Below are positions 5,803-31,584 of a stretch of DNA of 32,092 bases, piece after piece. The translations under genes and the position numbers were made by a program. Below the pieces are notes generated by a model. The model was not told where the DNA came from, searched no databases, and worked only from the letters and a program-made list of their open reading frames with translations. Each line of letters begins with the position of its first letter. Within the stretch, counting starts at the first letter, position 1. Origin of the DNA: Myxococcales bacterium (GTDB lineage Bacteria; Myxococcota_A; Polyangia; GCA-2747355); the NCBI GenBank assembly GCA_020431405.1, contig JAGQIK010000695.1, positions 1 to 32,092 on the forward strand, read 5' to 3'.

Positions 5803-7320
5803 ATGCAAAACGCGCTCTCGTGTCTCGCCGCGGCGACGCTGCTCGTCGCCGCTGCGCCCGCTCATGGCAAGACGGTTCAGGTCGGTCCGAGCAAGGCCAT
5901 CACGCATCCCAACACGGCCGTGGCGCAGCTCGCCGACGGCGACGTGCTCGAGATCGACGCTGGCACCTATACCAACGTCAAATGCAACTTCGGCAGCCGC
6001 AACAACCTCACCATCCGTGGCGTGGGTGGGCGTGTGTGGTTGCGCGGCACGGCCAACGACCTCGCCGCGGGCAAGGGCATCTTCGTCTTCGCCGGCAGCA
6101 ACATCACCGTCGAGGGCATCGAGTTTTCCGACGCCACGCTGGCGCAGGACAAGAATGGCGCCGGCATTCGCTGGCAAGGCCAAGGGCTCGTGGTGCGGCG
6201 CTGCAACTTCCACGACAACGACGACGGCATCCTCGCCGGCGACTCGCCCAACGCGGACGTGCTGATCGAGTACTCGATCTTCGACAACAACGGCTTCGGC
6301 GACGGCCAGTCGCACAACATCTACGTCAATCGCGCGCGCAAGCTCACCATCCAGCACAGCGTCTTCACGCGCGCCTACATCGGCCACGAGATCAAGAGCC
6401 GCGCCTTCGAGAACCTCATCCTCTACAACCGCATCAGCGACGGCAACGCGCGCACCAGCCGCAGCATCGACCTCTCCGAGGGGGGCACCAGCACCCTCAT
6501 CGGCAACGTCATCGAGCAAGGCGCCACCGCTGACAACAACACCGTGATCGGCTACGCCCTGGAGAACCCCAACACGCACACCCTCGCGCTGACGCTCGTC
6601 AACAACACCATCGTCAACAAGCGCCAGACCGTGCGCTTCATCCAGATGCGCGACACCACCAAGCTCACGCTGATCAACAACATCTTCTACTCCACCACCG
6701 TCGCCGGAACGCTCGTGGCGGGAAACGGCACGGTGACGGGCCAGAACAACTACGTGCCCAGCGGCGCGGCCGGCGCTGGCGGGCTGAGCGGCAGCTTCAA
6801 CGGCGCACTCAGCTTCGTCAGCCTCGCCAACGTCGACTTCCGCCTGCAGGCCGGCTCGGTGGCCATCGACAAAGGCATCGCACCGGTCGCGGCCACCCTC
6901 GAGCCCAAGTGGCAGTACGTGCACCCGGCGATGCGCGTCGCGCGCGCCGTGGTCAACGGCACGATCGACGTGGGCGCCTACGAATTTGGCACGCCCCAGT
7001 CGAGCGACGGCGGCTCGCCGCCGGCAGATGGCGGCTCGCCTCCCTCCGATGGCGCGGCCACCGAGAGTGGCCCGCCGCCCGGCGATGGCGCGCCACCGGC
7101 CGGCGACAGCGCGCGCGGCGTGGACGGCAGCTCGCCCGGCGCGGACGGTTCGAGCCCCGCGACAGACAGCGGCTCGAGCGGCGATGGCGGCGGTGGCGGC
7201 GGAGACGACGGCGGCTGCTGCTCGCTCGCAGGCGGCTCGGCGCCCACTGGCGGCGCGGTCTGCCTCGCGCTGCTGCTGCTTCTCGCCTGGAGCTGGCGCC
7301 GGCGGCGCCGACCGATCTAG
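5803..7320 (+). CDS. Exported right-handed beta-helix protein with MYXO-CTERM-type sorting tail
   Basis: The 505-residue product begins with a signal peptide (cut probably after AHG, near residue 22). About 370 residues of parallel beta-helix follow, with repeated rungs of the LTIRGV, ITVEGIEF, LVVRRCNF, LTIQHSVF and LTLVNNTIV kind, a fold shared by pectate lyase-like and NosD/CASH proteins. Next comes a low-complexity linker rich in Ser, Gly, Pro and Asp (about 400-470). The tail has a Cys-Cys pair in DDGGCCS, a hydrophobic stretch and the Arg cluster RRRRRP. This signal, linker and C-Ter pattern fits the MYXO-CTERM class, which in Myxococcota is thought to be cleaved and lipid-modified at the Cys for display at the cell surface. 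Binding or cleavage of polysaccharide is possible; I could not identify catalytic residues with confidence. Confidence 0.88.
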   Translation: MQNALSCLAAATLLVAAAPAHGKTVQVGPSKAITHPNTAVAQLADGDVLEIDAGTYTNVKCNFGSRNNLTIRGVGGRVWLRGTANDLAAGKGIFVFAGSNITVEGIEFSDATLAQDKNGAGIRWQGQGLVVRRCNFHDNDDGILAGDSPNADVLIEYSIFDNNGFGDGQSHNIYVNRARKLTIQHSVFTRAYIGHEIKSRAFENLILYNRISDGNARTSRSIDLSEGGTSTLIGNVIEQGATADNNTVIGYALENPNTHTLALTLVNNTIVNKRQTVRFIQMRDTTKLTLINNIFYSTTVAGTLVAGNGTVTGQNNYVPSGAAGAGGLSGSFNGALSFVSLANVDFRLQAGSVAIDKGIAPVAATLEPKWQYVHPAMRVARAVVNGTIDVGAYEFGTPQSSDGGSPPADGGSPPSDGAATESGPPPGDGAPPAGDSARGVDGSSPGADGSSPATDSGSSGDGGGGGGDDGGCCSLAGGSAPTGGAVCLALLLLLAWSWRRRRRPI

Positions 7321-7416
7321 ACGTGGGCGTCCGTCGTACAGCGAGGTATGCGAGCGAAACAGGCGTGCCGCTGCTACCCTAGTGAGACGAGCCGCCGTGG
7401 ACGGGGGGTGCCAAAC

Positions 7417-8487
7417 GTGGCGAGTGGGCAGCGGGGCCTAGCTGACCAGGGACTGACCGATCTGGGCCTCACTCTGCACTGGCAAGTTACCCGACGCACT
7501 CGCGAAAACGCGAGCTGCGCCGACGAGCTCGACCTCGCCACGATGCTGCTGGTGCTGCGGCAGTTCGAGGCCTTTGTCTCGCGCTGGCGCCTGGCACGGC
7601 GCGCGCCCGATACGCGCGCGCGCGTGGTGATTCATGGCGGCGAGCCGCTGCTGCGGCCCGACCTGTTCCAGCTTCTCGATCGCCTCGCGACAAAGCGAGA
7701 CACCTTCGAGTACGCGGTGATCAGCGACGGTCGCTGCATCGACGAGCGCATCGCCGCGCGGCTCGCTCGCGCGGGCGTCAGCTTCGTGCAGGTCGGGCTC
7801 GACGGAACGAGAGCCACACACGATCGCCTGCACGGCGAGGGCGCCTTCGATGGCTGCGTGGCCGCGCTGCGACACCTCCAGGCGAACGCCGTGCCCACCG
7901 TGGTTGCCTTTGGCGCCGACACGACGAACTACCACGAGCTCGGCGCCGTCGTGCGCATCGCGCGCGGCTTGCGCGCGACACGCGTGTGGGTCGACCTCGG
8001 CGCGCGCGTTTTTCGCGACGACGGCACGCACGTCGAGTCCGTGCTCTCGGCCGACCAAAATCGCGAGCTGAGCGCTGCCATCGCGGCCGAGCAGGACTCG
8101 AGCCGCAACGTGGAGCGCATCGAGGTCGTCGCCCATCGCTGTCTGCACTTTCTCGACGACCACTTCCTGATCGACTCCTGCGGCGCCGGCGACACGCGCA
8201 TCGCGGTCGCCGCCAACGGCGACCTGCTGCCCTGCGATCGCTTGGTGACCCCCATCGGCAACGTGCTCGATCGCTCCATCGCCGAGCTCTACGACCACAG
8301 CCATATCCTGCAGACGTTGCGCGACGCGACGCGAGTCGCCGATGGCTGCGAGGGCTGCGCCGACGAGCCCGCATGTCGCGGAGGGCTCAAGTGCATCTCC
8401 TACGCTGTGACGGGCAATCCGTTCGCGGCTGATCCCTGCTGCTGGCTCGCCATCCCGCTGCCCGATCTCGCTGAAGAAGCGCTCTAG
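7417..8487 (+). CDS. Radical SAM/SPASM-like protein lacking the SAM-cluster cysteines
   Basis: From the GTG at 7417, which follows a GGGGGTG ribosome-binding stretch, the product has 356 residues. The fold markers of a radical SAM/SPASM enzyme are there: a first strand LTLHWQVTRR, the HGGEP motif (73-77), the VQVGLDG strand with THDRLHGEGAFDG, and a C-terminal SPASM region with Cys255, 273, 311, 314, 320, 326 and 341/342. The CxxxCxxC loop that should hold the SAM-binding 4Fe-4S cluster, expected right after the first strand, reads TRENASC (28-34), so at least two of three cysteines are missing. The frame is intact there. It is either a catalytically changed paralogue, perhaps a scaffold, or uses another cofactor. 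Upstream in-frame starts (GTG 7408, ATG 7348) do not restore the motif. No RiPP-like precursor gene is evident nearby. Confidence 0.75.
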   Translation: MASGQRGLADQGLTDLGLTLHWQVTRRTRENASCADELDLATMLLVLRQFEAFVSRWRLARRAPDTRARVVIHGGEPLLRPDLFQLLDRLATKRDTFEYAVISDGRCIDERIAARLARAGVSFVQVGLDGTRATHDRLHGEGAFDGCVAALRHLQANAVPTVVAFGADTTNYHELGAVVRIARGLRATRVWVDLGARVFRDDGTHVESVLSADQNRELSAAIAAEQDSSRNVERIEVVAHRCLHFLDDHFLIDSCGAGDTRIAVAANGDLLPCDRLVTPIGNVLDRSIAELYDHSHILQTLRDATRVADGCEGCADEPACRGGLKCISYAVTGNPFAADPCCWLAIPLPDLAEEAL

Positions 8488-8520: not shown

Positions 8521-8550
8521 TTGACGGACAGTGCATCGCCGCGCTAACGC
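8521..8550 (+). promoter_or_regulatory. Candidate sigma70-type promoter for carA
   Basis: TTGACG (8521-8526) is followed after 18 bp by TAACGC (8545-8550), in the 76-bp gap before carA. The -35 is close to TTGACA and the -10 is weak. No riboswitch-like or attenuator structure was recognised in this gap. Two small GC-rich hairpins just upstream (around 8488-8527) have no U-tract and are not convincing terminators. Confidence 0.4.
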
Positions 8551-8563
8551 TGTATCCCGACAG

Positions 8564-9769
8564 ATGGCACGCACTTCTCGTCAGCGCCCGTCGGCCCACC
8601 TCGTCCTCGAGGATGGACGTGTTTTCGATGGGCGAGCGCTCGGTGCCGAGCAGCGCGAGATCTTCGGCGAAGCGATCTTCAACACCAGCATGACGGGCTA
8701 TCAGGAGATCGTTAGCGATCCCTCCTACTGCGGCCAGCTGATCACCTTCACAGCGCCCCAGATCGGCAACTACGGCGTCTGCGCGACGGACGACCAGGCG
8801 CCCCGGCCCCATGCCGCCGGCGTGATCGTGCGCGAGCTGTCGCCGATGACGTCGAGCTGGCGCGCGGAGGGCGACTTCGAGGCCTGGCTCGAGCGCTGCG
8901 GCATCGGCGGTATCTGCGAGGTGGACACACGCGCGCTGACCCGACACATCCGGTCGGCGGGCGCCATGCGCGCCGGGATCTTCCGCGCGGATCTCCCCCC
9001 AGACGCCGTCGAGCGCGTGCGCGCGCAGCCCAAGATGGAGGGGCTCAACCTCGCCGAGGTCGTCTCGACGCGCGAGCCGTACAGCGCGGAGGCAGGTCGC
9101 GGCGCCGACGCCGGCCCCAGCGATCGCGTGATCAACGCGCCGCGCCCACGCCGCGTGGCGCTGCTCGACTTCGGCGTCAAGCGCGGCATCGTGCAGTGCC
9201 TAACCCGGCGCGGCGTCGACGTCACGGTGATGCCCGCGTCGAGCGACGCGGCGGCGGTGCGTGCGGCCAAACCCGACGGCGTGTTGCTCTCCAACGGTCC
9301 GGGCGATCCCGCGCCGGTGCAGCGCGGCATCGAGACCGCGCGCGCCTTGCTCGGCGAGCTGCCGCTGTTCGGCATCTGCTTGGGACATCAGATCCTGGCG
9401 CTGGCGCTCGGCGCCGAGACGTACAAGATGCGCTTCGGCCACCACGGTGGAAACCACCCGGTGCGCGACGAGCGCAGCGGCGAGGTCTGGATCACGGCGC
9501 AGAACCACGGTTTCGCGGTGCGCGCCGAGTCGCTGCCGGCGTCGGTGCAGCGCACGCACGTCAGCCTCTACGACGGGTCGCTGGAGGGCTTTGCCGACGA
9601 GGGCCGCCGCATCACCGCGGTGCAGTTTCACCCCGAAGCCTGTCCGGGGCCCTCCGACGCGCGCGGCGTCTTCGACCGCTTTGTCGGGCAGCTCGAGCCT
9701 GGGCTAGGGCCCGGCCCGAGCGGCAATGGCAACGGCAACGGCAACGGCAACGGGAAAAGCGCGCGCTGA
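8564..9769 (+). CDS. carA: Carbamoyl-phosphate synthase, small (glutaminase) subunit
   Basis: A 401-residue CarA. The N-terminal domain carries the family stretches FNTSMTGYQEIVSDPSY and GNYGVC. The class I glutamine amidotransferase domain has LLSNGPGDP, the nucleophile Cys272 in GICLGH, and His356/Glu358 in FHPE. It releases ammonia from glutamine and passes it through the tunnel to CarB for making carbamoyl phosphate for arginine and pyrimidines. The ATG at 8564 was preferred to an in-frame GTG at 8531, as it gives the usual CarA N terminus. carB starts 3 bp after the stop. An oddity is the C terminus: after the normal end near FDRFVGQL it has a flexible GPGPSG plus Gly-Asn repeat tail. 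Confidence 0.98.
   Translation: MARTSRQRPSAHLVLEDGRVFDGRALGAEQREIFGEAIFNTSMTGYQEIVSDPSYCGQLITFTAPQIGNYGVCATDDQAPRPHAAGVIVRELSPMTSSWRAEGDFEAWLERCGIGGICEVDTRALTRHIRSAGAMRAGIFRADLPPDAVERVRAQPKMEGLNLAEVVSTREPYSAEAGRGADAGPSDRVINAPRPRRVALLDFGVKRGIVQCLTRRGVDVTVMPASSDAAAVRAAKPDGVLLSNGPGDPAPVQRGIETARALLGELPLFGICLGHQILALALGAETYKMRFGHHGGNHPVRDERSGEVWITAQNHGFAVRAESLPASVQRTHVSLYDGSLEGFADEGRRITAVQFHPEACPGPSDARGVFDRFVGQLEPGLGPGPSGNGNGNGNGNGKSAR
9722..9751 (+). repeat. GGCAAC hexanucleotide microsatellite in the carA 3' end
   Basis: One GGCAAT and four GGCAAC units in tandem, followed by a related GGGAAA, encode the alternating Gly-Asn tail of CarA. A six-base unit keeps the frame when copies are gained or lost, so the tail length could vary between strains without harming the protein. 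Confidence 0.85.
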
Positions 9770-9772
9770 TCG

Positions 9773-13005
<3,233 letters not shown>

Positions 13006-13009
<4 letters not shown>

Positions 13010-24405: not shown

Positions 24406-27400
24406 CTAGACGTTCGCCGTCTGCGCGTTGGCCATCAGCTTGCCAAAGCTCGGCGAAGCGGCGAAGGCCACCAGGTCCTGCAGGATCGGGCTCGAGTCGA
24501 CGTACTCGTCGAGCTCCTCGATGCGCGCCACCACGCGCGGCCGCGTGACGTCGGTTTCGAGGCGCGAGACGACGCGGAAAGCTTGCCGCAGGTCAGCACC
24601 CGCCAGAAGCCCCGCGCGGCGCGCCGACTTGCGCACGCCGAGCCAGTAACGCCGCCCCAGCTCGAGCGGGCTGACGTCGGCCCACTGCTCGAGCTGCTCG
24701 GCCCACGCCGCGCGCGTGCCCTCGTCGACCGCCTCGCGGATGCGATCCGAAAGCCGTGTCACCTGCTTGCCGGCGTCGCTCGAGAAGCCGAGCGCGCGCC
24801 ACAGCGCGGGCACTAGCTGCTCGCGCGCGTCGAGCGGCAGCGCGGCCAGCGCGCGGTGCCCGGGCCGGATCAAGGCCAGCGCGTAGGCGAACAGAAAGCC
24901 CACCTCGGCGTGCACCAGCTGCTGCATCACCTCGGTACGCACGACCACGGCGGCCGGGTCGCTGTTGACCACTACCACGCTCTCCGGCAGGTCCTGCGTG
25001 CGGTGCAGCGTGACGTCGTCGAAGCCGAGCTGGCTCGCCACCGCGCTGAAGGCCTTGCCGAGCGAGGTCTGCGGGCTGATCGCGATCGCGGCGCCGTCGC
25101 CGGCGTCCTCCACCGACGTGGTACCCAGCGGGCGCACCATCGTCTCGAGCTGCGCCAGCACGCCGGCCAGCGCGTCGATGGCGTCGCGGTGCATCAGCAT
25201 CTGGAAGTCCTCCGGACGCGGGCAGTACATCGGCGGACGCTCGTACTCCTTGCGCATCGCCTGCACCACGGCCTTGATGTCGGGCTCCACCTGGCTCACG
25301 CCGAGCAGCGGCGACATCATCGTCCAGGCCCAGCGCTTGTTGTCGGCGAGCAGCAGCTTGGCCAGCTCGAGCGTGCGCGTGAACCACGGCGGCCCAAACG
25401 CCACCAGCAGCCCCAGCACGTCGACGCGCTCCTCGCGGCGCGACGGATCGTTGCCGTACATCTCGTCGAGCTGCGAGAGCGCCTCGCGCGTGGGCAGCGC
25501 GTCGACGCTCTGGCGCAGGTACTGCTCGCAGCGCTCGCGGTCGCCGAGCTTGGCGCTGCAGATCAAGGCCATACGACGCAGCGACTCGGAGCGCTGCTCG
25601 GGCGTGCCGCTGTCGCAGCTCGCCTCGAGCACTTGCAGCACCTGCTGCCAGTCCTCGCGCCGCTCGAGCACCTCGACCAGGCCGTCGCGCGCCGGCTGGC
25701 GGCTCGGGTCGTAGGACAGCGCCATGTCGAAGGCCTCGATGGCCTCGTCCTCGCCGCCGTCGCGCGCCGCGAAGATCTCGCCGCGCACCTGCCACAACGT
25801 GGCCAGCTCGTCGGCGTCCTCGGCCGTCGGCAGAAGCCCGTCCACCACGGCGTCGCTCTCGTCGAGGCGTCCCGTGCGCTGATAGTGCCGCAGGGCGCGA
25901 TGCAAGAGGTCGCGGTGCCTCGGGTCGTCCTCGGGCAGGCCGTCGCTGAGCGCTTGCTCGTAGCAGGCACCGGCCTCCTCGGCGCGCCCGATGCCATCCT
26001 CCCAGAGCACGCCGATGCGGTAGTAGAGGTTGGCGCGGTCGGCTTCGTTTTCGACGACCGTCAGCGCGCGGATCAGGTACTCGAGCGCCGCCGCCACGCG
26101 ACCCGCCTCGGCTTGCGCATCGCCGATGGCCTCGAGGCAGTCGGCGCCGAGCGGCTCGATGTGCAGCGCCTCGCGGAAGTCGTCGATGGCCTCGTCGCGC
26201 CGCTCGAGGCGGCGCAACGTCACGCCGCGCGCGTAGTGCGCCGTGAAGCGCTGCTCGTCGGCGAGGTCGTCCTTGTAGTGCGACAGGATCTCGTCGAGCA
26301 GCTCGTGCGCCTGCTCGATGTTGTTGCTCTCGATGAGCTTCTCGGCGCGCGCCAGCGCCGCCGGCGCGTGGTTGGGCGTCAGCTCGTAGGCGCGCTGCAC
26401 CGCGCGCGCGTAGACGTCGGGGTGGTTGGCCGACTGCGCGCCGAGCGCGAGCAGGTAGAGTCGATCGGCTTCGTCCTTGAGCGCCTCGTGGTCGATCTTG
26501 CTGGTGCGCTCGACAGCCATCACCCACGAACGGCCGGCGCGATAGAGGCCCTCCGGATCGGCCGCGCGCTCGCACGCCGCCGCGAGCGCCTCCCAGGCCT
26601 CGGCGCCGTCGGGGTCGATGGCGACGGCGCGCTGATACCACGAGATCGCCTGCGGCACGTCGCTCTCGGCAGAGCCGTCGCCGAGCGCCTTGAGCCGCTT
26701 AGCCCGTTCGGCAGGCTCGAGCTCGCGCTCGCCTTCCATCGGCAGCAGCGCCGCCGCCGGTCGCAGGCTCTTGCGCCGGCGGCCGATGCCTTTGAGCGCC
26801 TCCATCGCGGGCTGGTTGTCGGGATCGACGCCGCGCGCCTCGCGATAGAACGGCACCATCTTGTCGTTGAGCTCGGGCGTCTCGTCACAGACCTCGGCGA
26901 GGTGACACAGCACCAGCGCCGACTCGGTGGGCGACAGCCCCTTGGCCTGCTGGTGGCGCAGGTCGACGTACTTGACCATATCGCCGGCGTGACGAGCCAA
27001 GCGCGCCATCGCCAGCAGCGCGCCCTCTTTGTGCTGCGGGTGTCCGTCGATGATGCGCTTCCAGTAGCCCTGCGCGCGCTCGCTGTCGTCGAGGTTGAGC
27101 TGGCAGATGCGCGCCATCTCGTAGAGCGAGTCGATCTTGTCGTGCTCGTCGAGGTTGTCCATCTGCTCGTCGAGCAGCTTGCACAGGTCGTCGAAGCGGC
27201 CGGCGCTGCGCAGCAGGCGCGACAGGCGCACGCGCACGGCGCGGTCTTGCGGACGCAGCTCGAGCACGAAGCGATAGAGCTCCTCGCGCAGCTCGGGCTC
27301 GCGCTCGGCGAAGTGCTCGTGACAGACGAGCAGCGCCTCGTCGAGGCTCTCGAGCTTCTCGTCACGCGGCTCGGCGGCGCGCGCGCGATCGCGCAGCACC

Positions 27401-30400
27401 AGCACGAGGTCCTTGTGGCGCTTCTCGGCGCGCAGCAGGCGCGCCAGCGGCTCGAAGCCGGGGCCGTCGGCGCCCGTCTCCTGCACCAGCTCGCGCAGCG
27501 TGGCGATGGCGCCGGCGCTGTCTTCCACATCGCGGCGCTGGATCTCGGCGATCTCCAGGCGCAGCGCGGTGCGCTTGGCCTGGTCGGCGGCCTTGAGCTC
27601 CATGCGCAGCCAGCGCAGGCGCAGGCTCGGCTCGGTGATGCTCAGCACCAGACCCTCGAGACCGGTGCGCGCGTCGGTCTGCTCGGCGTCGAGCTCGAGC
27701 ACGGTGCCGTAGGCTTCGAGCGCGCCCTCGGGGTCGCCGAGGTGCTGCTCGCTGATGCTCGCGATCTCGAGCAGCCGCGGGATGCGGTTGCCTTCCTCGG
27801 GTGCCAGATGCACCCATTGGTGCAGGCGGTCGCGCAGGTCGCGCCACTCGTTGCGCTCGCGGTGCCAGGCGATCATCACCTCCAGCGATCGCACCTCGTC
27901 CTGCTTGAGCGCCAGCAGCCGGCGATGGATGTCGATCGCGCGCTGCGGCTGATTCAGCTTCTGCTCGTAGATCTCGGCGATGCGCCGCAGCAGCGAGAGC
28001 GTCTGCTCGTGGTCATCGCTGCCGGCGGCGGCCATTCGCAGCGTGCTGGCCAGCGCCTCGTAGCGGTCGATCTTGCCGGCCAGCGAGTCGAGCTTGTCGG
28101 CGAGGTCGACGGCGCTGGGGTTCATCACGAACGCCTCGGAGTACAGCACGAAGGCGCGATCGAGATCGCCGAGCTTGTCCTCGTAGAGCGCGGCGGTGAC
28201 GGCCAGCTCGTCAGCCGAGCGTCGCTCCTGCGGCGCGAGCTGCGCCGCTTCGAGCACTGGCAGCAGCCAGTCCCATCCCTTGAGGCCCTCGGCGTCGCCG
28301 GTGAGCGCCTTGAGCAGGTCGAGATCCTCGGGCGCCAGGCGGAAGCGGCGCACCAGCATGTCGAAGGCGAGCTGCTGCTGCTTGAGCTTCTTGCGCGCTA
28401 CGTGCTCGCGTCGATCGAGCAGCGCGATGCGGTCCTTGTTGGACGTGGTGCGGTCCCACAGCTGCGCAAGCACCGCGTCGAGCTCGTTCCACAGGTAGTG
28501 CGCGCCGGCGAGACGCTCGAGCTCGGCGAGCGCGTCGCTGTCGACCGGGTCGAGCTCGACGATGCGGCGCACCTCGTGAAACGCGCGCAGCGGCGCCTCG
28601 AGCTTCTTTTCGCAGATCGCGGCGCGGCGGCGCAGCACCTTCTTGCGCTCGCCGATCTTGAACTCCGCCGTGGTGAGGCGATCGAGCACGGCGAGCAGGT
28701 CTTCGAAGCGTTTGGTCGGCTCGGCGAGCCGCTCGAGCTGCGAGAGCACCTTGCTTGCCTGATCGGGCGCGAGCAGCGCGCTCTGCAGCGCGAGATAGCC
28801 GCGCGGCGCGTCTTCGAGGTGCTCCTCGCAGACCTTGGCCAGCTGCTCGAGCACTTCGAGGCGCTCGTCGTCGTCTTTGGCCTGGCAGCAGAGCTGGATC
28901 AACACCGCCGCGTGCTCGGGCCACAGCTTGGCGTCCTGCTGCGCCTCGGCTTGCAGCTCGGCGAGCACCGCCCAGTCGCCGTCGCCGAGAAACAACACGC
29001 GCCGCAGCAGGAAGAAGCGCTTGATGTGCTCCTTGTCAGGCACCAGCGCGAGGCAGCGGCGCAAGAGGTCGATGCGGCGCTTGCTGTCGACGACCAGCAC
29101 GCTGGCGTGGTCGAGCGCGCCGGCGGCCTTGCCGGCCTGATCGGCGCCGGCGTAGATGTCGACCAGCTGGCCGAGTGCCTGCTGGTTGGTGGGCTCCCAG
29201 CGCAGGATGCGCTCGTAGGTGGCGGCTGCTGCCTTGGGCACCTCGAGCGCGCGCCAGATGTCGGCGATCTGCAGCGCCAGCGCCACGCGCTCGCCGACGT
29301 CGTCGACGGCGCGGATCTGCTGCTCTAGCGTGGCGATCAGCTCGCGGCGATTCTCGAGCGACGAGTAGTGTCCGGCCAGCGCCGAGAGCGCCTGCTTGTC
29401 GAGCGGCGCGAAGTCGAGCACGCGACGCCAGGCTTCTACCGAGCGCTCGGGCTCTTTGAAGTTCTCGTCGAGGTTCTCGGCGGCGAGGCGACACAGCTTC
29501 TGCGCGCGCTCGACGTCGTCGGTAAGCCAGATCTGGCGCATCAGCGCCGAGTTGAGCGACTCGAAGTCGCCGCGGCGCCGGTGAAGCTGCGTCAGCTCCT
29601 CGCGCACGAGCAGGTCGCTCGGGTCGAGCGCGAGGATCTCTTTCCAGCACGCCTCGGCGCGTTCGTCGTCGCCCATGCGGCGCGCGTAGTGGTCGCCCAG
29701 CGCGCGCAACAGATCGATGCGCCGGCGCGGCTCTTTGATCAGGTTGAGCTGCCCCTCGAGCGCGCGCGCCACGCCGCGCAGGTCGCCGAGCTTCTCGTAG
29801 AGTCGAGCCAGCGCCTCGAAGGAGCCGAGGTGCTCGGCGTCGATGCTGATGCGGCGCTCCCACAGCTTGACCGCGTGCTCGGCGTTCTTCTCGTGCTCCT
29901 CGGCGATTTCAGCGGCTTCGGCGAGCAGCGCACCGCGCTGGTCGTCATCGGCGACGGAGTCGGCCTTGGCCACCAGCAGCGACAGCAGCTCGTCCCACTT
30001 GCCGGTGCGCGTGAGGTACTCGCGCTTGCGCGTGGTGCCGTCGTGGTTGCTGGGGTCGACATCGAGGATGCGGTTGTACGCGGCGACGGCCTGCTCGAGC
30101 CGGTCGGCGCGCCACAGCTTGTCGGCGACGAGCTGCTGCAGGTCGAGCGCCGCCTCGGCCGGCACGGCGCCGTCGTTGGCGGCCTGCTTGCCGAGCCGCT
30201 CGAGCGCGTCCCAGTCGGAACGCTGCGCGTACACGCGCGCCAGCTGCAGCGTGGCGATGGGATCCTGCGGGCTGCGCTCGACGATCTGCTCGAGCACCCG
30301 CGAGGCCTCGTCGGCAGCCTGCTCGCCCGAGAGCTTGACCTCGGCCAGCTCGCGCAGCGCCACCAGCTGCGCCGGGCCCTCGAGGCGGTCGGCGCGCTCG

Positions 30401-31584
30401 CGCAGAAACGCCGCCATCTCCGACCAGCGACCGGTGAGACGATAGAGCCGCGTCAGCTCGCGCGACGCGTCGTCCATCGCGTCGCCGAGGTGCCACAGGC
30501 GCTCCCAGGCTTTGATCGCGAGGTCGACCTGCTTGAGCTGCTGCTGCGCGATGTCGGCCGCGCGCCGCGTCCAGCTCAAGCGGTCGTTGGGATCCCACGT
30601 CTCGTCGACGGCGCCCGCGTAGAGGTGATACATCTCCGACCAGGCGCGCTTGCTCTCGAAGCGCTCGGCGAGATAGCGCAGCGTCTGCTTGTCGGCGGGG
30701 TCGATCTTCGCTAGCTCGACGAATGCCTGCTCGGCGCGGCGCGTGTCCTTGAGGCGGTCACGGTAGATCTTGGCCAGGTCGAGCAGCAGCGACTTGCGCG
30801 TCTCGGCGACGGCAAACGGCGAGTGCATCAGCGCGTTGCCGGTGATCGCGGCGAGCTTCTTCCAGCCACCCACGCGCGCGAGCTTCTGCGCCACCGACTG
30901 GAAGATCTTGTAGCTGGTCAGCCAAGTGTTTTCGCCCTCGGGCAGCGGGCCGTCGTGCGGCAGCACGTCGAGCTCCACCGCCATGGTGGGCGGACGGCGG
31001 CTCGTCTGCGAGGCGGTGGTCTCGCGGCTGGCGGTCTCGCGGCTGGGGCGGCGCTCCTCGCGCGCTGGCTCGGCGCGCGGTGGTGGCTCGGAAGGCGCCG
31101 ACGCCGCGGCGACCGCCTGCGAGGCGCGCCGCTCGCGCACTTCGGGGGCGCCCTCGGTGACGCGGCCGGAGCGCGAGCGCTCCTCGGGCGCCGGCTCGGC
31201 CTGCGGCGCCGGTGCCGGCTCGATCGGCTCGGGCGCCAGCTCGGCGGGGGGCATCGTCGTGATCGCCGTGCGCTGCGCCTCGGGCGGCGCCGCGTCGAAC
31301 GAGGAGACGGCAGGCGGCGGCTCGGGGGCGGGCGCCTCGAGCGCCGCGACGGCGGCCACCGACTCGTCCATGTCGATGTCGATGCTCAGCTCCGACGAGT
31401 CGATGTTCCACATCTCGTCGGTGGTGCTCGGCTGCAGCCCGCCCGCGAGCAGGCTCTGCGCGCGGATCTCGCCGGGGTGATCCTCTACGCCCGTGTCGCT
31501 CTCTTCCTCGTCGAAGTCCTGACCCCAAGCATCGAGGTCGTCAGCGTCTGGGCTGGATTGATCGCGGCGAAGGTCGTCGGCCAT
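24406..31584 (-). CDS. Giant tetratricopeptide-repeat protein (2392 residues)
   Basis: One unbroken 7.2-kb gene. Residues 1-200 are acidic and then Pro/Glu/Ala/Arg-rich, probably disordered. From about 200 to 2090 runs a solenoid of tetratricopeptide-like repeats, for example WKEILALDPSDLLVREELTQLHRR and YERILRWEPTNQQALGQLVDIY, often alternating with helices of the type RIDLLRALGDHYARRMGDDERAEACW. The last 280 residues are a separate domain with segments such as GFLFAYALALIRPGHRALAALPLDAREQL. No signal peptide or membrane segment is visible, so it should be cytoplasmic and act as a scaffold. The ATG has a GAGAG-type ribosome-binding sequence. It lies between a hybrid kinase gene upstream and an envelope lipoprotein 2 nt downstream, all on one strand. 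The function is unknown. Its strong Leu/Ala/Glu/Arg periodicity also creates long false frames on the other strand. Confidence 0.92.
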   Translation of the reverse strand: MADDLRRDQSSPDADDLDAWGQDFDEEESDTGVEDHPGEIRAQSLLAGGLQPSTTDEMWNIDSSELSIDIDMDESVAAVAALEAPAPEPPPAVSSFDAAPPEAQRTAITTMPPAELAPEPIEPAPAPQAEPAPEERSRSGRVTEGAPEVRERRASQAVAAASAPSEPPPRAEPAREERRPSRETASRETTASQTSRRPPTMAVELDVLPHDGPLPEGENTWLTSYKIFQSVAQKLARVGGWKKLAAITGNALMHSPFAVAETRKSLLLDLAKIYRDRLKDTRRAEQAFVELAKIDPADKQTLRYLAERFESKRAWSEMYHLYAGAVDETWDPNDRLSWTRRAADIAQQQLKQVDLAIKAWERLWHLGDAMDDASRELTRLYRLTGRWSEMAAFLRERADRLEGPAQLVALRELAEVKLSGEQAADEASRVLEQIVERSPQDPIATLQLARVYAQRSDWDALERLGKQAANDGAVPAEAALDLQQLVADKLWRADRLEQAVAAYNRILDVDPSNHDGTTRKREYLTRTGKWDELLSLLVAKADSVADDDQRGALLAEAAEIAEEHEKNAEHAVKLWERRISIDAEHLGSFEALARLYEKLGDLRGVARALEGQLNLIKEPRRRIDLLRALGDHYARRMGDDERAEACWKEILALDPSDLLVREELTQLHRRRGDFESLNSALMRQIWLTDDVERAQKLCRLAAENLDENFKEPERSVEAWRRVLDFAPLDKQALSALAGHYSSLENRRELIATLEQQIRAVDDVGERVALALQIADIWRALEVPKAAAATYERILRWEPTNQQALGQLVDIYAGADQAGKAAGALDHASVLVVDSKRRIDLLRRCLALVPDKEHIKRFFLLRRVLFLGDGDWAVLAELQAEAQQDAKLWPEHAAVLIQLCCQAKDDDERLEVLEQLAKVCEEHLEDAPRGYLALQSALLAPDQASKVLSQLERLAEPTKRFEDLLAVLDRLTTAEFKIGERKKVLRRRAAICEKKLEAPLRAFHEVRRIVELDPVDSDALAELERLAGAHYLWNELDAVLAQLWDRTTSNKDRIALLDRREHVARKKLKQQQLAFDMLVRRFRLAPEDLDLLKALTGDAEGLKGWDWLLPVLEAAQLAPQERRSADELAVTAALYEDKLGDLDRAFVLYSEAFVMNPSAVDLADKLDSLAGKIDRYEALASTLRMAAAGSDDHEQTLSLLRRIAEIYEQKLNQPQRAIDIHRRLLALKQDEVRSLEVMIAWHRERNEWRDLRDRLHQWVHLAPEEGNRIPRLLEIASISEQHLGDPEGALEAYGTVLELDAEQTDARTGLEGLVLSITEPSLRLRWLRMELKAADQAKRTALRLEIAEIQRRDVEDSAGAIATLRELVQETGADGPGFEPLARLLRAEKRHKDLVLVLRDRARAAEPRDEKLESLDEALLVCHEHFAEREPELREELYRFVLELRPQDRAVRVRLSRLLRSAGRFDDLCKLLDEQMDNLDEHDKIDSLYEMARICQLNLDDSERAQGYWKRIIDGHPQHKEGALLAMARLARHAGDMVKYVDLRHQQAKGLSPTESALVLCHLAEVCDETPELNDKMVPFYREARGVDPDNQPAMEALKGIGRRRKSLRPAAALLPMEGERELEPAERAKRLKALGDGSAESDVPQAISWYQRAVAIDPDGAEAWEALAAACERAADPEGLYRAGRSWVMAVERTSKIDHEALKDEADRLYLLALGAQSANHPDVYARAVQRAYELTPNHAPAALARAEKLIESNNIEQAHELLDEILSHYKDDLADEQRFTAHYARGVTLRRLERRDEAIDDFREALHIEPLGADCLEAIGDAQAEAGRVAAALEYLIRALTVVENEADRANLYYRIGVLWEDGIGRAEEAGACYEQALSDGLPEDDPRHRDLLHRALRHYQRTGRLDESDAVVDGLLPTAEDADELATLWQVRGEIFAARDGGEDEAIEAFDMALSYDPSRQPARDGLVEVLERREDWQQVLQVLEASCDSGTPEQRSESLRRMALICSAKLGDRERCEQYLRQSVDALPTREALSQLDEMYGNDPSRREERVDVLGLLVAFGPPWFTRTLELAKLLLADNKRWAWTMMSPLLGVSQVEPDIKAVVQAMRKEYERPPMYCPRPEDFQMLMHRDAIDALAGVLAQLETMVRPLGTTSVEDAGDGAAIAISPQTSLGKAFSAVASQLGFDDVTLHRTQDLPESVVVVNSDPAAVVVRTEVMQQLVHAEVGFLFAYALALIRPGHRALAALPLDAREQLVPALWRALGFSSDAGKQVTRLSDRIREAVDEGTRAAWAEQLEQWADVSPLELGRRYWLGVRKSARRAGLLAGADLRQAFRVVSRLETDVTRPRVVARIEELDEYVDSSPILQDLVAFAASPSFGKLMANAQTANV

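Follow-up and report, generated by a model that had tools for sequence, protein, structure and literature searches.

The window, a stretch of 32,092 nucleotides from a Myxococcales bacterium (contig JAGQIK010000695.1), carries a gene for a radical-SAM/SPASM-like protein, hereafter pseudo-rSAM, preceded by a gene for a beta-helix protein and followed by carA and carB. The features of the locus on which the analysis relies are as follows.

5803-7320 (+), upstream gene for a right-handed beta-helix protein with a MYXO-CTERM tail at 7207-7311 (Pfam Beta_helix; TIGR03901)
7348-8487 (+), pseudo-radical-SAM/SPASM gene (open reading frame; Pfam Radical_SAM and SPASM; third-position GC content, GC3, of 0.84; AlphaFold model)
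7498-7521 (+), loop after beta-1 at the expected CxxxCxxC site, residues 51-58, TRENASCA (alignments)
7636-7647 (+), GGEP motif, kept, residues 97-100 (family alignment)
7795-7797 (+), G150 replacing the ribose-motif Ser, SkfB S211 (SkfB and family alignments, SkfB paper)
7831-7833 (+), H162 replacing the Arg that positions the SAM carboxylate and ribose, SkfB R223 (alignments, SkfB paper)
7912-7914 (+), G189 replacing the beta-5 motif Thr, SkfB T251 (SkfB and family alignments, SkfB paper)
8179-8442 (+), SPASM domain with all seven cysteines (Pfam, alignments)
8531-9769 (+), carA, downstream (Pfam)
9773-13009 (+), carB, downstream (Pfam)

The reading frame of the gene is open and encodes 379 residues from ATG 7348 or 356 residues from the in-frame GTG 7417. 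The GTG is probably the likelier start, because residues 1-37 are disordered in the AlphaFold model and a G-rich stretch precedes it. The product matches Pfam Radical_SAM at 48.6 bits, from residue 83 on and covering profile positions 37-163, and SPASM at 27.7 bits, above the cut-off of 21.5. GC3 is 0.84, compared with 0.85-0.94 in neighbouring genes, 0.86 in the intact paralogue of the same genome (L002) and 0.72 in the overlapping antisense frame, which is likewise open over 378 residues. The upstream beta-helix protein scores 25 bits against TIGR03901, over the cut-off, and its gene lies on the same strand at a distance of 27-96 nt, so that co-transcription with the pseudo-rSAM gene is possible. 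Genes for Ppx/GppA and HDOD proteins also lie downstream. The earlier note had proposed looking for a precursor peptide or a full radical-SAM gene in the neighbourhoods of orthologues; at the present locus neither adjoins the gene, whose neighbours are the MYXO-CTERM beta-helix protein and carA/carB. No transporter was found beside it, no second radical-SAM gene is present among the ORFs tested in the window, and Rfam and tRNA scans gave no matches.

The CxxxCxxC cluster motif of functional radical SAM enzymes is absent. Where relatives carry C(N/D)xxCxHCYQ, the alignments place residues 51-58, TRENASCA, and the substitution of TRENASC for the motif within an intact frame, as first read from the DNA, is borne out by the ORF and by these alignments. 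Relative to L002, the closest protein in the same genome, VTRRTRENASCADEL stands in place of VTERCNLRCAHCYQERYAGDEL, and the distance from the first Cys to the next Asp is shorter by a net 7 codons with the frame preserved. At most one of the three triad cysteines (C57) remains. The triad is present in 20/20 close family members (L002, L014-L032), in all of the more distant ones aligned, and in all other radical-SAM matches checked in the same genome (L003-L010). A triad hidden in another frame is ruled out, since the remaining two frames across the loop hold no Cys triad. A perfect small hairpin, CTCGCG-AAAA-CGCGAG (7499-7514), sits exactly at the expected position of the triad and is probably a chance product of GC-rich sequence. 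Derivation of the loop from an inserted repeat was rejected: the hairpin CTCGCGAAAACGCGAG has no second copy in either the window or the genome, and such inverted repeats are frequent in the gene.

The loss extends to the SAM site. In the crystal structure of SkfB, SAM is contacted by GGE 160-162, Ser211 (ribose), Arg223 (carboxylate and ribose), Thr251 of the beta-5 motif, Phe123 and Tyr125 (PMC6231123). These sites were transferred through a pairwise alignment in which positions were counted manually and a chain offset of 2 was applied. GGE is kept at 97-99, Ser is replaced by G150, Arg by H162 and Thr by G189, and Tyr is deleted; of the contact set required of functional radical SAM enzymes, only GGE is thus retained. 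The Ser, Arg and Tyr are conserved in 20/20 family members and the Thr in 19/20. HGGEP (96-100) and THDRLHGEGAFDG (157-169) had both been noted as kept, and both are present; however, H162 replaces an invariant Arg within THDRLHGEGAFDG, and the His of HGGEP replaces a family-invariant Thr, leaving GGEP as the part that is retained. The change in pseudo-rSAM exceeds chance, because it has lost 26 of 78 invariant or near-invariant family columns and every other complete member has lost only 0-6; some of the 26 fall within the SPASM region. The earlier judgement that a sequence error is unlikely is supported by the loss of several SAM-contact residues distant from the loop. Canonical SAM binding is very unlikely, and we consider the protein, with a high degree of confidence, to be SAM-dead.

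All seven SPASM cysteines (C278, C296, C334, C337, C343, C349 and C365) are kept in the alignments. The earlier note, which counted at least six, was right about their retention and one short in the count, and its contrast between a lost catalytic cluster and a retained auxiliary-cluster region holds, supported by the missing triad and the seven cysteines. The consequences that the note suggested, namely a non-catalytic partner, a regulator or new chemistry, are hypotheses. Following the PapB numbering in PMC10470005, cluster I is predicted to be held by C278, C296 and C349 (a three-cysteine site, as in PapB) and cluster II by C334, C337, C343 and C365. By this assignment, the SPASM domain is expected to bind both auxiliary Fe-S clusters.

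The AlphaFold model (mean pLDDT 83, pTM 0.82) is mostly confident beyond the disordered residues 1-37 and contains an intact partial barrel and a SPASM domain. The best PDB folds are PqqE (6c8v) and SkfB (6efn), with BlsE, SuiB and anSME among the other top matches; the partial TIM barrel and the Pfam Radical_SAM match place the protein in the radical SAM fold superfamily. Identity to L002 is 42-43%, and the tree favours the two as a sister pair (support 85/82), although alternatives are not rejected. The end branches measure 1.96 for pseudo-rSAM and 0.42 for L002. After about 2 changes per site, the protein has kept 55/84 conserved positions and 7/7 SPASM cysteines, and such retention under free drift over a branch of this length would be very unlikely. 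Losses at SAM-contact sites far from the loop, together with the intact frame, the coding-like GC3 and the confident fold, make both an error in the sequence and a recent pseudogene unlikely. A search of 59 relatives, of 379 genomes across the phylum and of 318 genomes of the class, in sets that overlap (about 700 in all), found no orthologue, and neither did pattern scans across 84,980 species genomes, which needed exact short peptide matches and were of limited sensitivity. Plasmid matches resembled ordinary radical-SAM proteins, and in the best of them the triad is intact.

The parent family (L002, L014-L032), whose members come from Acidobacteria, beta- and deltaproteobacteria and Clostridia, shares with pseudo-rSAM the same domains, the seven SPASM cysteines, DG(T)RxTHD and GGEP, with 42-43% identity between pseudo-rSAM and either L002 or L014, but has the CNxxCxHCYQ motif and the SAM-site Ser, Arg and Thr that pseudo-rSAM lacks. 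The haloarchaeal TIGR04347 is named in NCBIfam as a pseudo-SAM/SPASM family, which denotes proteins that resemble radical-SAM enzymes without being true ones; the score of pseudo-rSAM against that model is 69.7 bits, compared with a cut-off of 525, and the triad-intact L002 scores higher, at 110 bits. TIGR04304, the GeoRSP SPASM protein, is the named companion of the radical-SAM/SPASM enzyme TIGR04303; pseudo-rSAM reaches 55.9 bits where 300 are required, and the locus has no GeoRSP cassette. TIGR04150, which we take to be the pseudo-rSAM of the GG-Bacteroidales system, is absent among the matches listed for the protein, and no peptide cluster lies at the locus. In peptide clusters, members of that family have been reported to pair with a second radical-SAM protein (PMC4573289). 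Pseudo-rSAM/SPASM proteins have been described before in a few other bacteria and archaea. The present case is a singleton and apparently of separate origin, as its scores fall far under the TIGR04347 and TIGR04304 cut-offs.

Genetic linkage offers a view of what the parent family does. At six loci (L014-L018, L029), a protein with a Gly/Cys-rich tail, e.g., GGCGGGGCGGGCGG, is encoded near the maturase gene; the same filter found none in the other loci scanned. The genes are as follows.

L014, 5162-5980, Gly/Cys-tail protein
L015, 5245-6102 (-), Gly/Cys-tail protein
L016, 4044-4928, Gly/Cys-tail protein
L017, 7024-7962 (-) and 8062-8940 (-), two Gly/Cys-tail proteins
L018, 7024-7227 (-), Gly/Cys-tail protein
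L029, 7602-8711, Gly/Cys-tail protein

Five tail proteins exceed the TIGR04222 cut-off (L015, L016, two at L017, and L029); that of L014 has no family match and that of L018 is cut by the locus end. Parent-family loci with Gly/Cys-tailed membrane proteins often also carry a nucleotidyltransferase-like gene. For TIGR04222 proteins, a role as MNIO substrates has been discussed (PMC12452194). The linkage makes the parent enzymes plausible modifiers of the Gly/Cys-rich tails, and a radical-SAM partner for TIGR04222 proteins may represent a separate, little-described system. The genome of pseudo-rSAM contains no TIGR04222 protein, and the sole DNA pattern matches to a Gly/Cys-tail substrate there (C152) were rejected as antisense low-complexity sequence.

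We propose that pseudo-rSAM and L002 share an origin in one SPASM maturase family, and that pseudo-rSAM has retained its partial TIM barrel and SPASM domain but no longer has a radical-SAM cluster or canonical SAM binding. That the protein is functional with its auxiliary clusters appears probable. Its role as a non-catalytic SPASM protein that binds a substrate or relays electrons, perhaps for L002, is the likeliest of the readings, and one to which we give equal chances of being right and wrong. In this role, the three-cysteine auxiliary cluster I would bind a substrate, either a peptide or a protein that contains Cys, and/or the protein would pass an electron to an active radical-SAM enzyme, for which L002 would be the best candidate. 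Both activities have a precedent in PapB: one of its auxiliary clusters binds the thiol of the substrate, and PapB without its radical-SAM cluster can still reduce QueE, another radical-SAM enzyme (PMC10470005). Paired SPASM proteins are exemplified by TrnC/TrnD of thuricin CD, which act as a complex in which only the radical-SAM activity of TrnC is strictly essential (PMC12093266). An active partner gene in the same locus, as would be expected of such two-protein maturase pairs, is absent from the ORFs tested in the window; L002 is on another contig, C27, near the contig start, where it adjoins an ORF without a Pfam match and a B12-binding-domain protein. L002 as the specific partner is a tentative and rather doubtful assignment. 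No operon, precursor or orthologue supports a partner role (about 700 relatives searched), and the parent family's partner type, TIGR04222, is missing from the genome. About one-third of family-invariant residues are lost, the SPASM region included, which counts against this reading and fits slow decay as well. Should pseudo-rSAM prove to function as a SPASM protein that lacks a radical-SAM cluster, it would allow a natural test of what such auxiliary clusters can do by themselves (substrate docking, electron relay). The PapB cluster-deletion work approached that question with unstable mutants, and the intact L002 in the same genome would serve as a built-in control.

The foremost alternative is a decaying paralogue that has lost its function and drifts, its frame having survived either by chance or because the decay began recently. 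A lone gene in a single genome with 26/78 invariant positions lost and a branch of 1.96 is what such decay would leave, and long frames are cheap at high GC, as the open antisense frame illustrates. Free drift is, however, hard to reconcile with the 7/7 SPASM cysteines and 55/84 conserved positions retained after about 2 changes per site, with a GC3 well above that of the antisense frame and with the confident fold. We therefore regard decay as unlikely, if still the most serious competitor; slow decay following a long functional period may also have occurred.

An improbable alternative is that pseudo-rSAM binds or handles the Gly/Cys-rich MYXO-CTERM tail of the upstream beta-helix protein. 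The closely spaced, same-strand gene encodes a tail, GGGGGGDDGGCC, that precedes a membrane segment, and the parent family is linked to Gly/Cys-rich tails, such as GGCGGGGCGG on proteins adjoining relatives of L002. The tails of parent-family loci are, however, unlike MYXO-CTERM, and chance adjacency is not rare (about 1-2% by hand estimate), because the genome contains about 85 MYXO-CTERM matches over the cut-off.

Very improbable is a remodelled enzyme with a putative other metal site at the barrel mouth and new chemistry. His/Cys positions 44, 57, 96, 130, 162, 265, 267 and 272 would supply the site; conserved positions that are now His or Cys include H44, H96, C130, H162, C170, H267 and H272. 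Among 19 changed highly conserved columns, 6 became His or Cys, where 0.9 were expected (nominal P 0.0003, post hoc), but the test was picked after the data were seen, other members exceed expectation too (14 vs 8.4), and the His plus Cys total of the protein is not raised. That such a site replaces the catalytic Fe-S cluster and supports a non-SAM metal-dependent reaction beside the two SPASM clusters is, if anything, harder still to credit. An assembly or sequencing artefact in the loop, conceivable in that only one draft assembly is available, is extremely improbable, given a frame preserved despite the net 7-codon shortening and the independent losses at SAM-contact sites 150, 162 and 189.

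Elsewhere in the window, 24406-31584 (-) encodes a 2392-residue protein rich in TPR repeats.
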